Under the pieces are notes generated by a model. The model was not told the DNA's origin, ran no database searches, and worked only from the letters and a program-made list of their open reading frames with translations. This document shows, in pieces, positions 23,563 through 28,468 of a stretch of DNA of 38,708 nucleotides. The translations under genes and the position numbers were made by a program. This DNA is from Rubrivivax sp. (lineage in GTDB: Bacteria > Pseudomonadota > Gammaproteobacteria > Burkholderiales > Burkholderiaceae_C): assembly GCA_026125665.1 (NCBI GenBank), contig JAHCKS010000044.1, positions 1 through 38,708 on the forward strand, read 5' to 3'. Position 1 is the first letter of the stretch, and every line of letters begins with the position of its first letter.

Positions 23563-23815
23563 GCAGCGCGGCGCCGCCTGGCGTGAACGCGGGCGGCGCT
23601 GGCGAGCCGGCGGCCGTCCAGGCCCGGCGCGCGCGCCGGCGCGCTTCGGTTGGGTGGCCGAGCGCGCCTGAGTGATGCCGGGTGTGCCGAAGTCGGTGGT
23701 CGCCGTCGCGGGGGCGGCCGCACGTCGGTTGCAGGGCTCAGCCACTGTCCGTCGGGCCCGCGCGACAGCTGTAGCCCATGCGGTGGATGCCGCCGGCCGT
23801 GCAGGCCGGAATCTG

Positions 23816-23888: not shown

Positions 23889-26828
23889 ATGTTCCTGTCT
23901 GCCATCCGGATCCGGTTGGCGCCTCTCGCGCCCGCGGCTCGCCGCGCCAGCTGGTTGCTCGGCGTTGCGTTGCTGCTCCCTGGAAAGGTACCGGCCCAGC
24001 CGGTCTCCGACGCGCCGTTCCCGGCGCTGGAGGCCGGCATGCACACGGCGGCCATCGTGCGTTTCGCGGTGGATCGTGCCGGCCGCTATGGCGTCAGCGT
24101 GGCCGGCGACAAGACCGCGCGCGTCTGGGACCTGGCCAGCGGCCGCGCGCTGCAGACCCTCCGCGTGCCGGTGGGCAGCGACAACGAGGGCAAGCTCTTC
24201 GCGGCGGCCGTCAGCCCCGACGGCGAGCGGGTGGCCGTCGGTGGATGGACCAACAAGGACGGCCTGGAGACGTCCGTCTACCTCTTCGACCGCGCCACGG
24301 GGCGCCTCGTCGGGCGGATCCCCGCGCTGCCCAACACCGTGAACCACCTGGCCTGGTCGCCCGATGGCAGGCGCATTGCGGTCGCCCTGGGCAGTGGCAG
24401 CGGCATCCGCCTGCACGCCGCCGCGCCACCCTACGCCGAGGTCGCCCGCGATACCGCGTACCCGAGCAGCAGCTTCAGCATCGACTTCGACCGCGCGGGC
24501 CGTGTCGTCAGCACGGCCGAGGACGGCAAGGTGCGCCTGTACGACGCGACACTGCGTCTGCTCGTCGCGCCGCGTGCGCTGCCCGGTGGCGAGGCCTTCT
24601 TCGCCCGCTTCTCGCCGAACGGGGAGCGCATCGCGGTCGGCTTCTACGACAGCACGGCGGTGCAAGTGCTCTCCGCTGCCGACCTGACGCCGCTGCGGGT
24701 GATGGACACCTCGGCGGCCGAGCTCGGCAACCTGAGCGCCGTGAGTTGGTCCGCCGACGGCCGCCGCCTCTTTGCCGCCGGGACCAACCAACTGCCCGAC
24801 GGGCAGATGCCGGTGCGCGTCTTCGACCCGACCACGGGCCGTGCGCTCGCCGCCTGGCCCGTGGCGACCAGCACGGTGCCGGACCTGCAGGCGCTGGCCG
24901 ACGGGCGGCTGGTCTTTGCCAGCCAGGCTCCGACCTGGGGCGTGCTCGATGGCGAGGGGCGCATGCTCACGCGGCAGGACTCGCCGATTCCCGACCACCG
25001 TGGCGAGTACAACAACTTCCGGCTCTCGCGCACCGGCGACCTGCTGGCGTTCCGCCACGCCGTCTGGCAGCAAGGCCGCTGGTCGCGGCAGAGCCTGGGC
25101 TTCGATCTGCGGCGGCTGGTGCTCGGCCCGGCCGAAACGCTGCCCGCACCGGAACTCGCGGCGCCGCGCATCGACGGCTTGCCCATGAGGGCGGAGGACT
25201 GGCGCGACACCCTCACGCCGACTTTCGCGGGCCGTCGCGTGGACCTCCACGCCAACGAGCGATCGCGCAGCCTGGCCATCTCCGCTGATGCCAGGCACTT
25301 CGCGCTGGGCGGCGAGTACACGGTGCGGTGGTTCAACGCGCAGGGTACGCAGCAGTGGGTGCGATCCCTGCCCGGCGTGGCCTGGCTGGTCAACACGTCG
25401 CGCGATGGCCGCTTCGTCGTGGCGGCGCTCGGCGACGGCACGATCCGCTGGTACCGCACCGACGACAAGGGCAGCGAAGCGCTTGCGCTGTTCGTGCACG
25501 CGGACGGCCGGCGCTGGGTGCTGTGGACACCGGAGGGGTTCTTCGCCGCTTCGCCCGACGGCGAGGCACTGATGGGCTACGTGCTGAACCAGGGCAGCCG
25601 TGAGCGCGAGGCCGAGTTCGTCAGTGCCGCGCAGCTGCGCGAGGCCTTCTACCGTCCCGACCTGATCGTGCGGCGCATCGAGGGCGACGAGGCCGCCATC
25701 CGTGCCGCGCTGGCCGATGTCGGCGACGTGCGGCGCCTCCTCGGCGAAGGGCTGCCGCCACAGCTTGAGTTGCTGTCCGAAGCCAGCCCGGTCGTCGCGG
25801 CGGGAGGCGACTACGAGCTGAGGCTGCGCATCACGCCGCGCAAGGGCGGCGTCGGGCGGCTCGCGCTGCGCGTCAACGGCGCGGCGCAGGATGCCGGCCG
25901 CGACCCGGCGCCGATGGGCGGCGTGTACAGCCAGCGCCTGCGCTATCCGCCCGGCAGCTACCGCCTGGAGGTGGCGGTGTTCGACGCCCGCAGCCAGGTG
26001 GCCTCGAAGACCCAGAGGATCACGCTCGAGGTCCGCGGCGCGGCCCCCAAGCCGCAGCTGCACCTGCTGAGCGTGGGCGTGTCCCGCGCCGTGTACGCCG
26101 ACAGCAAGCTCGCGACGGCGGGCGTGGAGTTCGCCGACCGCGATGCCCGCGCCTTCGTCCAGCGCATGGCCGGCCAGGCTGGCGACGGGCGGCTGTACCG
26201 GACCGTGACCTCGCGCGTTCTGACGACGAAGGCCGAGACGAGCCGCGATGCGATCGAAGGCGCGTTCGCCGCCGTTCCGTTCGAGGCCGGCGACACGGTG
26301 GTGGTCTTCCTTGCCGGCCACGGCCGGGCACTGAAGAACAAGTACCACTTCCTGCCGGCCGACCTCGCCATCGAGAACGAGGACAGCATCGGCCGCCACG
26401 CGCTGACGCAGGACCGCCTGGAAAAGCTCCTGCGTCGCTTCGCCACCGGCCGCGTGCTGCTCGTGCTGGACACCTGCCACGCGGGCGCGATGACCGAGAG
26501 CCGGGGGATCGAGGAGGCCTTCGCCATCGGCGACCTGATGCGCCAGACGGGGCAGGTGGTGCTCGCCGCCAGCCGCAGCGACGCGCTGGCGTTCCAGGAC
26601 CGCAAGCAACAGCACGGCATCTTCACGCTGGCGCTGCTCGACGGCCTCAAGGAGGCCGACTACGACCGCGACGGCGTGGTGGACGCGGAGGAGCTGGCCA
26701 AGTACGTGGCACGCGAGGTGCCGGCCCGCAGCGAGCGCGCCAACCCCGGCGGCCCGCGCCAGGTGCCCATGCGCTCGCCGACGCCGAACGCGTTCCCGCT
26801 GGTGCCCGCCGCCGGGTCGGGCCGATGA
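23889..26828 (+). CDS. Exported beta-propeller (WD40-like) caspase-family protease with EF-hand loop
   Basis: 979 residues from ATG 23889; GTG 23883 is in frame. A signal peptide is visible (positive n-region, core SWLLGVALLL, cleavage near KVPA at residue 36). Residues ~45-560 form WD40-like blades (GDKTARVWDLASG, SPDGRRIAVALGSG, GDGTIRWYR). The motif WTPEGFFAASPDGEALMGY follows, as in many WD40-caspase proteins, then an Ig-like segment (~620-715). The caspase-like (C14) domain starts near residue 720, with catalytic His811 in VVFLAGHGRA and Cys863 in LVLDTCHAG. Residues 924-935 (DYDRDGVVDAEE) are a canonical EF-hand calcium loop. The predicted location is the periplasm or outside. The TIR gene overlaps its stop codon (ATGA), so the two form one unit, plausibly in stress or phage response. 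Confidence 0.88.
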   Translation: MFLSAIRIRLAPLAPAARRASWLLGVALLLPGKVPAQPVSDAPFPALEAGMHTAAIVRFAVDRAGRYGVSVAGDKTARVWDLASGRALQTLRVPVGSDNEGKLFAAAVSPDGERVAVGGWTNKDGLETSVYLFDRATGRLVGRIPALPNTVNHLAWSPDGRRIAVALGSGSGIRLHAAAPPYAEVARDTAYPSSSFSIDFDRAGRVVSTAEDGKVRLYDATLRLLVAPRALPGGEAFFARFSPNGERIAVGFYDSTAVQVLSAADLTPLRVMDTSAAELGNLSAVSWSADGRRLFAAGTNQLPDGQMPVRVFDPTTGRALAAWPVATSTVPDLQALADGRLVFASQAPTWGVLDGEGRMLTRQDSPIPDHRGEYNNFRLSRTGDLLAFRHAVWQQGRWSRQSLGFDLRRLVLGPAETLPAPELAAPRIDGLPMRAEDWRDTLTPTFAGRRVDLHANERSRSLAISADARHFALGGEYTVRWFNAQGTQQWVRSLPGVAWLVNTSRDGRFVVAALGDGTIRWYRTDDKGSEALALFVHADGRRWVLWTPEGFFAASPDGEALMGYVLNQGSREREAEFVSAAQLREAFYRPDLIVRRIEGDEAAIRAALADVGDVRRLLGEGLPPQLELLSEASPVVAAGGDYELRLRITPRKGGVGRLALRVNGAAQDAGRDPAPMGGVYSQRLRYPPGSYRLEVAVFDARSQVASKTQRITLEVRGAAPKPQLHLLSVGVSRAVYADSKLATAGVEFADRDARAFVQRMAGQAGDGRLYRTVTSRVLTTKAETSRDAIEGAFAAVPFEAGDTVVVFLAGHGRALKNKYHFLPADLAIENEDSIGRHALTQDRLEKLLRRFATGRVLLVLDTCHAGAMTESRGIEEAFAIGDLMRQTGQVVLAASRSDALAFQDRKQQHGIFTLALLDGLKEADYDRDGVVDAEELAKYVAREVPARSERANPGGPRQVPMRSPTPNAFPLVPAAGSGR

Positions 26829-28468
26829 GCGACGCCGACGCAGATCGGCCGCTCAGGCTGTTCGTCTCCTACTCGCACCGCGACGAGGCGGATCGCGAGC
26901 GCTTCGGCGTGCACCTGGCCGCACTGGAGGCGGAGCGCTACTACGAGGTGTGGCACGACCGCAAGCTGGGCGCGGGGCAGGACTGGGCGAAGGAGATCGA
27001 CCGCCACCTCGCCGAAGCCGATGTCGTGGTGCTTCTCGTCAGCGCCGACCTCATCAACTCCCGGTACGTGTGGGGCATCGAGCTGGAGCAGGCGCTGCGC
27101 CAGGAGGCGGCGGGCAAGACGCGGATCGTTTCGGTGATCCTCAAGCCCTGTCGCTGGCAGCGGCCGTTCTCGCCGTTGGCGAAGCGTCAGGCCCTGCCGC
27201 CCAAGCTCGACCGCGTGAGGTCCGTCAGCGAGCACCCTGGCGGCAAGGAGAAGGCGTTCGACGAGGTGATGGAAGGGCTGGAGCGGCTGTGCGAGGACGT
27301 TCGGGCGCAGCGAAGGCATGCGGGCTCGGCGGCCACGGCGTCTTTGCCGGCGGAAGCCGCCGGCCGCCTGTCCGCGGCCGACCGGGTTCGGCTGTGGGTC
27401 GGCCGGCATCGTGCGGTGTGGACCGCCGCAGCAGGGGCCGGTGCTCTCGCGATGGCCGCCGCGGTCGTGCACGGCCAGCTCGGGCAGGTCGCGGCAGAGG
27501 GCCGGCACCTCCTTCGCATCGGCGAGTACGTCGACGCGGAGGCAAGGTTCGCACGTGCCCGATGGTGGCCGGGCCTGGACGACCACGGCGCGGAGGTCGC
27601 GCGTCTCGGTCGCATGCTGCCCCGGCTCGGCGACGAGAGAGTGCGTCGCGAGTTCGACCGGGCGCTCGGGACCCTCGACCGGGCGGCGCCGGGCTCCGCC
27701 TTCGTCAAGTACCTGCAGGGCGTGGCGCGGTTCGACGACTGGCGCCTGGCTGGTGATGCGCAGGCGGGTGTCCTCTTCGCGCAGATGCAGGCCCTCTACC
27801 GCGAAGCCGCTCTGGCCGACCCGGCACTGGCCGAAGCCCACGCCGGGCTGGCCTTGGCGGCCAGCGTCGAGTGTCGGCTCGACGACGCACTGGCGGCCAT
27901 CGAGGAGGCCGAGCGGGCGGCGGGCAGCCCGCCCCCGGCGCGCTACGCCGTCCAGCGGGCAGAAGTGCTGGGCCGATTCGATGATCCGGCAAAGCGCGCC
28001 GAGGCCATGCAGGTCTTCGAGACACGTGGCCACGATCCGCGCGCGCGGCTGCTGCAGGCCATGCTGGCCTGGCAGTCCGGGCAGTGGGCCCTGGGCCGCG
28101 ACAAGGTCGCCGATGCGCTTGCCGGCATCGATCGTTCGGCCGAAGCGGGCGCCTGGCTGCTGCACGCGCCGGGCGGCCCATGGCTCGTCGGCGATGCCGA
28201 CGCCAAGCGCTGCCTGCTGCGCTACGCCGGTGCCGTGGCCGGGCGGGTGGGCGACGCTGCCGCAGAGACGCACACCTGGGCAGCCGTGGCCAGGGACTGC
28301 CCGCGGATCACCGAAGACGCTCGCGAGTACCTGTGCGCGCACCTGCCCGAGCAGGGCGCGGCCCAAGCCCGCGATGAGCTGCGCTGCCCTCAGCCGCAGC
28401 CCAGAGCCGTCTGTGCCACGCCCCGTGCCGGCACCGAGACCCGGCCGGCCGGCACGCCGCGCACGTGA
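26825..28468 (+). CDS. Membrane-anchored TIR-domain protein with helical-repeat C-terminus
   Basis: 547 residues from ATG 26825, overlapping the caspase stop by ATGA. Residues ~10-160 are a TIR domain: RLFVSYSHRDEADRERFGVH, DVVVLLVSADLINSRYVWGI, with Glu86 in WGIEL at the position of the catalytic glutamate of NAD-cleaving TIRs. A basic stretch (RVRLWVGRHR) precedes one membrane segment (~197-217), so by the positive-inside rule the TIR lies in the cytoplasm. The C-terminal ~320 residues should be periplasmic. They are helical and TPR-like (ALADPALAEAHAGLALAASV, LDDALAAIEEAERA). Bacterial TIRs consume NAD+ or make cyclic-ADP-ribose signals, often in anti-phage systems. The tail may contact the exported caspase. 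Neither enzymatic activity nor partner is shown by sequence alone. Confidence 0.88.
   Translation: MSDADADRPLRLFVSYSHRDEADRERFGVHLAALEAERYYEVWHDRKLGAGQDWAKEIDRHLAEADVVVLLVSADLINSRYVWGIELEQALRQEAAGKTRIVSVILKPCRWQRPFSPLAKRQALPPKLDRVRSVSEHPGGKEKAFDEVMEGLERLCEDVRAQRRHAGSAATASLPAEAAGRLSAADRVRLWVGRHRAVWTAAAGAGALAMAAAVVHGQLGQVAAEGRHLLRIGEYVDAEARFARARWWPGLDDHGAEVARLGRMLPRLGDERVRREFDRALGTLDRAAPGSAFVKYLQGVARFDDWRLAGDAQAGVLFAQMQALYREAALADPALAEAHAGLALAASVECRLDDALAAIEEAERAAGSPPPARYAVQRAEVLGRFDDPAKRAEAMQVFETRGHDPRARLLQAMLAWQSGQWALGRDKVADALAGIDRSAEAGAWLLHAPGGPWLVGDADAKRCLLRYAGAVAGRVGDAAAETHTWAAVARDCPRITEDAREYLCAHLPEQGAAQARDELRCPQPQPRAVCATPRAGTETRPAGTPRT

Follow-up and report, generated by a model that had tools for sequence, protein, structure and literature searches.

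A rare two-gene module pairing a predicted exported propeller-caspase with a membrane-anchored TIR protein in Rubrivivax and distant bacteria

To our knowledge, the bacterial TIR immune systems described so far act in the cytoplasm, and the proteases of Thoeris systems are cytoplasmic, sharing a compartment with the TIR product. In type IV Thoeris, according to the sections available of PMC12847820 (citing Rousset et al. 2025), N7-cADPR activates a caspase-like protease. A second related arrangement is System 4 of Kaur et al. 2020 (PMC7159879), which the excerpted text presents as a two-gene, membrane-associated EACC1-caspase conflict system with a proposed role in membrane sensing. Proteins combining a caspase domain with WD40 repeats have been catalogued as well: the portions available of Asplund-Samuelsson et al. 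2012 (PMC3501461) report the combination in 73 of 671 prokaryotic sequences, mention possible signal peptides and suggest a surface or fratricidal role. Here we describe a gene pair from Rubrivivax sp. in which a TIR domain and a caspase-like protease are predicted to lie on opposite sides of the inner membrane, a layout for which we found no description in the accessible passages of the open-licence PMC literature.

The pair lies in a 38,708-nucleotide stretch of the Rubrivivax genome, referred to below as the window. Open reading frame calls agree with an earlier note on this DNA as to the position of both genes and their ATGA overlap. The mechanical call began the caspase frame at 23778; we preferred the ATG at 23889 because this start yields a signal peptide. 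We looked for a sigma-70-like promoter at the locus and found none. The parts of the pair are as follows.

23889 to 26828, plus strand: caspase-like protease gene, predicted exported, with WD40 propeller, 979 residues (ORF, Pfam/NCBIfam, AlphaFold)
23889 to 23999, plus strand: signal-peptide-like N-terminus, residues 1–37 (hydropathy script, judged by eye)
24018 to 24983, plus strand: WD40 propeller, residues 44–365 (Pfam and model; seven-bladed by structural match)
25041 to 25568, plus strand: second beta-rich region, residues 385–560 (model secondary structure, conservation)
25749 to 26048, plus strand: region resembling a beta-sandwich, residues 621–720 (model secondary structure, from which the name is inferred)
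26058 to 26741, plus strand: caspase domain, residues 724–951 (Peptidase_C14 match, conserved His/Cys)
26319 to 26321, plus strand: His811 codon, in the caspase domain
26475 to 26477, plus strand: Cys863 codon, in the caspase domain
26825 to 26828, plus strand: ATGA overlap, start of the second gene and stop of the first
26825 to 28468, plus strand: gene for the TIR, membrane segment and TPR-like tail protein (TIR-TM-TPR), 547 residues (ORF, AlphaFold)
26849 to 27298, plus strand: TIR domain, residues 9–158
27080 to 27082, plus strand: Glu86 codon, in the TIR domain
27413 to 27469, plus strand: membrane segment, residues 197–215 (hydropathy; within modelled helix 184–231)
27521 to 28399, plus strand: TPR-like tail, predicted extracytoplasmic, residues 233–525, with Cys463 and Cys492

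The first gene product had been read in the earlier note as a caspase-like protease with a His811/Cys863 dyad and a beta-propeller, and both assignments held. Pfam WD40 matched the protein at 56.7 bits (cut-off 27). With the full-length caspase as query, Peptidase_C14 was absent among the best 25 of 27 Pfam families listed; when the C-terminal 313 residues were scanned alone, it scored 37.8 bits against a cut-off of 21.4. His811 lies within AGHG (809–812) and Cys863 within DTCHAG (861–866), and an alignment of 18 caspase rows (A3) retains the two residues in 18/18 and 17/18 rows, respectively. The AlphaFold model has a mean pLDDT of 88.1; its structural match (VIA) in effect spans residues 50–354 only, and the best 60 of 151 matches in a PDB sequence search all fall inside the propeller. 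The propeller is also the best conserved domain of the pair, with a mean pairwise identity of 0.50 compared with 0.44 for the TIR domain, 0.43 for the caspase domain and 0.26 for the tail. An EF-hand-like motif near residue 920 scored 18.4 bits against 25.9, was by eye unconserved in A3, and was set aside.

The second gene product matched Pfam TIR_2 at 57.6 bits (cut-off 28). Its Glu86, the first E of IELEQ, occupies what we take to be the catalytic position of NADase-type TIR domains. This residue is invariant in an alignment of 13 TIR partner rows (A2), as are Asp45, Arg46 and Trp54 (all 13/13), in keeping with the catalytic type ascribed to it previously. The partner was modelled by AlphaFold with a mean pLDDT of 82.7, and structure comparison placed the fold of its TIR domain near NAD-consuming TIRs; a PDB sequence search with the protein returned no matches. 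By the sequence and fold criteria of the NADase-type TIR family the partner would thus be a member, with NAD+ cleavage or cyclisation itself a prediction. Hydropathy likewise agreed with the one membrane segment attributed to this protein, finding a single hydrophobic stretch after the TIR domain (residues 197–215, hydropathy 1.78) that is alanine-rich and only moderately hydrophobic in the window. The TPR label of the tail stands in part: the AlphaFold model and TPR matches in homologues support it, whereas Pfam gives no match, TPR included, on the window's own tail.

Several features predict on which side of the membrane each part lies. All 18 caspases of A3 carry a hydrophobic N-terminal core, the weakest at 1.74, a value reached by 3% of 217 internal stretches, and the window caspase read from the ATG at 23889 accordingly has the signal-peptide-like start proposed for it. 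The cores of some relatives end in lipoprotein-like fashion, with LSAC in L114 (lipobox-like) and MVAC in L108 and L109. The sole cysteine of the window caspase is the catalytic Cys863, as would suit an exported protein, and several relatives have more. In the partner, Lys and Arg are in excess on the TIR-side flank of the membrane segment in 11 of 13 proteins and tie in 2, and the segment exceeds a hydropathy of 2.4 in L111, L118, L119 and L181. Among 18 tails, Cys463 and Cys492 occur together in 12, the second occurs alone in 1, and neither occurs in 4, while L116 ends before the region; this co-occurrence, to which relatedness also contributes, suggests a disulfide and hence an oxidising compartment. 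Taken together, the N-terminal cores, the cysteines and the positive-inside bias predict the layout that the earlier note had put forward, with the TIR domain inside and the protease outside, and place the partner tail outside as well.

How widely the pair occurs depended strongly on where we looked. In a protein search of 61 genomes (own, genus and order), the TIR protein matched in 11, own included, with a full-length match in the window's genome only, and the caspase matched in 32, often over nearly its full length. Twenty caspase loci from the own genome (4 loci), genus and order showed no TIR neighbour, either by a TIR model built for this work or by Pfam TIR_2 coordinates in the same genomes, the contig of one locus (L055) ending ~300 bases past the caspase; this genus-level sample alone would have suggested accidental adjacency. 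Searching 398 genomes of the phylum with the partner alignment again gave a full-length match in the window's genome only, the other matches covering the TIR part or the tail part. Relatives were missed by a contig scan that used the TIR protein by itself and recovered by one that used the caspase alignment. This pattern-based scan, over 84,980 named species, yielded 79 loci from the best 80 of 349 confirmed stretches, and in 13 of the 79 a TIR-TM-TPR gene lies directly downstream of the caspase (L107, L108, L109, L111, L112, L113, L115, L116, L118, L119, L127, L153 and L181). These 13 loci, of which L108 and L109 are close relatives and L109, L116 and L153 end at a contig edge, come from Cyanobacteriota, Acidobacteriota, Pseudomonadota and Desulfuromonadales; L169 was excluded from the count, its TIR lying ~2 kb off with a different tail. 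In L153:2-4297 and L111:1-5519, one TIR gene is flanked or preceded by two caspase copies.

Spacing and divergence also link the two genes. The intergenic gap in 14 pairs is -4 bp in 5, 2–6 bp in 7, and 209 and 305 bp in the other 2, values that depend on the start codons we picked. Over 11 pairs (leaving out L116, which is truncated, and L153 and L109, which are not in both alignments), caspase distances correlated with tail distances (Spearman rho 0.78, Mantel p 2e-4) and with TIR distances (Spearman 0.60, p 1e-3). The two genes thus seem to travel as a unit, common genome ancestry adding to the correlation. A profile of the caspase clade at E 1e-80 matched 5 of 369 genomes of the class, 6 of 347 in an Acidobacteriota sample and 1 of 339 in a cyanobacterial sample, counts that take in the centre genomes. 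Nine further caspase loci from the class and Acidobacteriota samples, each with at least 3.4 kb downstream, had neither a TIR nor a tail match. Four plasmid records held weaker caspase relatives at E 1e-40, and phages held none at E 1e-20. The caspase and the TIR-TM-TPR protein form a real two-gene module, and a rare one.

A tree of 94 caspase rows, from which incomplete caspases (among them L153, L169, L060 and L061) were left out, places all 13 TIR-paired rows (the window and 12 others) within one 18-row clade with a support of 100. No TIR was detected beside the 76 rows outside the clade, though for 10 of these the downstream sequence is shorter than 1 kb. The TIR label changes 4 times on the tree, at least 3 of them by well-supported branches, compared with 12.3 times in shuffles, and 0 of 500 shuffles were as low; part of the 18-row clade consists of open forks. 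As to the earlier note's concern that the homologues might rarely be found together, TIR neighbours are indeed rare across the caspase family at large, and they accompany 13 of the 18 rows within this one clade. At the level of sequence, the pair, its conservation and its catalytic residues are demonstrated.

The remaining members of the clade are informative about which parts are constant. In L110, an ORF separates the caspase from a partner that joins a divergent TIR_2 (54.2 bits) to the same membrane helix and tail; our TIR model missed this TIR, and the absence of TIR at other loci is therefore uncertain. At L104, an intact caspase is accompanied by a partner that consists of the membrane helix and tail with no TIR; in L114 the tail lies one gene further on, behind an N-terminus without a Pfam-detectable TIR. 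That these two loci keep the tail without a detectable TIR points to some TIR-independent role for it, and the TIR-less N-terminus of L114 hints at a swappable cytoplasmic output. By eye we had suspected a death-like effector-associated domain in the partner of L114 and L221, for which Pfam gave no support. The contig of L105 ends 750 bases past its caspase. In L106:6845-9922 (Methylovulum), Tyr replaces Cys863, the protein itself carries a C-terminal membrane helix, and the retrieved stretch contains neither a TIR nor a tail gene; this caspase is likely a pseudo-protease. With the truncated L109 counted, the clade holds a TIR-TM-TPR partner in 14 of 18 members and the tail in 16. A model of the tail at E<1e-30 matched 16 of 100 loci, namely the 13 from which it was built and the new L104, L110 and L114, all three in the same caspase clade; weaker matches in L150 and L177 look like generic TPRs. 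The constant parts of the module would thus be the exported propeller-caspase and the TPR tail, with a cytoplasmic N-terminus that is usually a TIR domain carrying the invariant Glu.

Other members of the caspase family have other neighbours. Paralogues with a predicted exported propeller-caspase stand beside two-partner secretion genes in L054 (own genome, C231), L055, L058, L065, L066, L067 and L073. Pfam finds a ShlB-type transporter in L065 and L066 and a TPS-domain exoprotein in L054 and L066, and the assignments in L055, L058, L067 and L073 are by size and position only; in these paralogues the caspase family has another, distinct kind of partner. In L070, L071 and L072, members of another caspase branch, small envelope-like genes come next, one of them, in L071, encoding an LPP20 lipoprotein (Pfam). 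In L060-L063 a large gene whose product begins like a lipoprotein lies downstream of the caspase, and its L060 copy has RCC1 repeats (Pfam). L064:9612-16251 carries three consecutive genes on the same strand, for a propeller-caspase, a phospholipase D-like protein and another Peptidase_C14 protein. The window's genome has 10 Peptidase_C14 matches and 9 TIR_2 matches, the latter within a range of 0–17 over the 61 genomes.

An enrichment near defence genes, which the earlier note proposed to look for, is so far unsupported. With PADLOC, 90 neighbour proteins of the 13 loci matched 67 families at 1e-5 in an analysis with no background control; the top family had 3 members and the rest 2 or fewer, and many of the matches listed (25 of the 67 families) were to UvrD-helicase models. 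A phage-defence role is plausible for TIR and caspase modules, and these neighbourhoods do not show one for the pair. Near the Accumulibacter pair, L119:2749-4152 holds a DUF4062 gene adjoining an AAA gene; DUF4062 proteins are reported, in the portion available of PMC13174449, as TIR-like NADases in a phage defence system.

We lean, at somewhat less than even confidence, towards a receptor in which a membrane-spanning TIR protein and an exported protease subunit work together, from outside to inside. Most likely, the caspase and the TPR tail form an extracytoplasmic sensor that gates a cytoplasmic TIR NADase; in this scheme we infer caspase-tail contact, cleavage of the tail, the outside-in direction, the NADase output and the trigger. 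The caspase-like protein would be exported, a few relatives being tethered through a lipobox-like cysteine or a C-terminal membrane helix, and its propeller would recognise a ligand or a state of the envelope. The partner would span the inner membrane with its TPR tail outside and its TIR domain inside. The caspase would dock on the tail and, once triggered, cleave or rearrange it; this would reposition the TIR domains, which would then deplete NAD+ or generate a signal derived from it, and growth would stop. Envelope damage or surface phage attack is a candidate trigger. Against this receptor model stand L106, which has neither the catalytic Cys nor an adjacent partner, the tails of L104 and L114 with no detectable TIR, the caspase loci of the own genome, genus and order at which no TIR was detected, the only moderate hydrophobicity of the window's membrane segment and the lack of consistent defence neighbours.

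Control might instead run inside-out, the earlier note having allowed for either direction: the cytoplasmic TIR or other N-terminal domain would detect an event in the cytoplasm and, by way of the membrane helix and tail, switch on the exported caspase, which would then digest periplasmic or surface proteins. Retention of the tail beside the intact caspases of L104 and L114, which makes the protease end the constant part, fits this reading, as does the activation of a caspase-like protease by a TIR product that the text available of PMC12847820 describes for type IV Thoeris. Against it, an exported caspase would presumably be out of reach for a small NAD-derived product, which would leave a mechanical signal as the only route, and the propeller, a usual recognition module, is both the best conserved part and predicted to lie outside. 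We consider this direction unlikely, if deserving of serious weight, and favour outside-in over it. Less probable still is a constitutive envelope complex in which the TPR tail serves the caspase as a membrane anchor or chaperone and the TIR domain is an inactive cytoplasmic scaffold, the role being envelope maintenance or development and not immunity. The export and envelope genes that adjoin the paralogues (two-partner secretion, the LPP20 lipoprotein) are consistent with such a role, and we saw no defence island near the pairs; yet an inactive scaffold sits poorly with four residues, Glu86 among them, that are invariant in all 13 partners, and the divergent TIR_2 found in the same place in L110 suggests that TIR activity is wanted.

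We give little credence to an all-cytoplasmic, Thoeris-type TIR-caspase pair whose hydrophobic segments have been misread: PADLOC ThsB1, a model that gives no cut-off, does match the TIR part at 8.1e-32, but this reading would leave unexplained the signal-like N-termini in 18/18, the LSAC of L114, the single catalytic Cys, the paired tail cysteines and the strongly hydrophobic membrane segments of four partners. Chance adjacency of a caspase paralogue upstream of a TIR gene, which the 0 of 20 related loci with a detected TIR neighbour might have suggested, is rejected as almost certainly wrong given 13 other loci of the same architecture, their clustering in one clade, their mostly tight gaps and their correlated distances.

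The transmembrane receptor that we prefer resembles each of the described systems in part. As in type IV Thoeris, by the excerpted account of it, one operon encodes both a TIR protein and a caspase-like protease. Here, however, export is predicted for the caspase, which bears a WD40 propeller, and the TIR partner combines a membrane anchor and a TPR tail, so that, unlike in type IV Thoeris, the protease is predicted to occupy a different compartment from the TIR product. Curated Thoeris models that have cut-offs stay below them (NCBIfam type III Thoeris ThcB4, 15.7 bits against 220; Pfam ThsB_TIR, 14.2 against 21.2), and no type IV Thoeris model was among the curated-model matches; Thoeris is an analogy here and not a membership. 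The EACC1-caspase system, as set out in the text available, likewise consists of a gene for a protein with one membrane helix and a gene for a caspase. There, the membrane gene comes first, the caspase is N-terminal and the C-terminal domains vary, whereas here the caspase gene precedes that of its partner, the caspase domain lies at the C-terminal end of a protein predicted to be exported, and the partner combines TIR and TPR; the NCBIfam EACC1-associated caspase model scores 75.2 bits on the window, 76.4 on L107 and 78.2 on L181 against a cut-off of 140. For the WD40-caspases of PMC3501461, the portions available describe no TIR membrane partner or two-gene module.

The pair may be viewed as a variant TIR/caspase conflict system with an unusual spatial arrangement, in which TIR and caspase are split across the inner membrane and caspases are joined to TIR signalling in a new way. 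The Toll receptors of animals offer a further parallel, having extracellular repeats, one membrane helix and a cytoplasmic TIR domain, with extracellular proteases acting upstream. In the bacterial pair the domain order is reversed and TPR takes the place of LRR, so that the likeness is one of analogy and we claim no descent. More tentatively than the receptor itself, we suggest that the module is Toll-like in its logic, with a dedicated exported propeller-caspase controlling the ectodomain of a transmembrane TIR enzyme and thereby converting an outer event into NAD+ consumption inside. If this is true, bacteria would have a receptor that senses the outside and answers by loss of NAD+.
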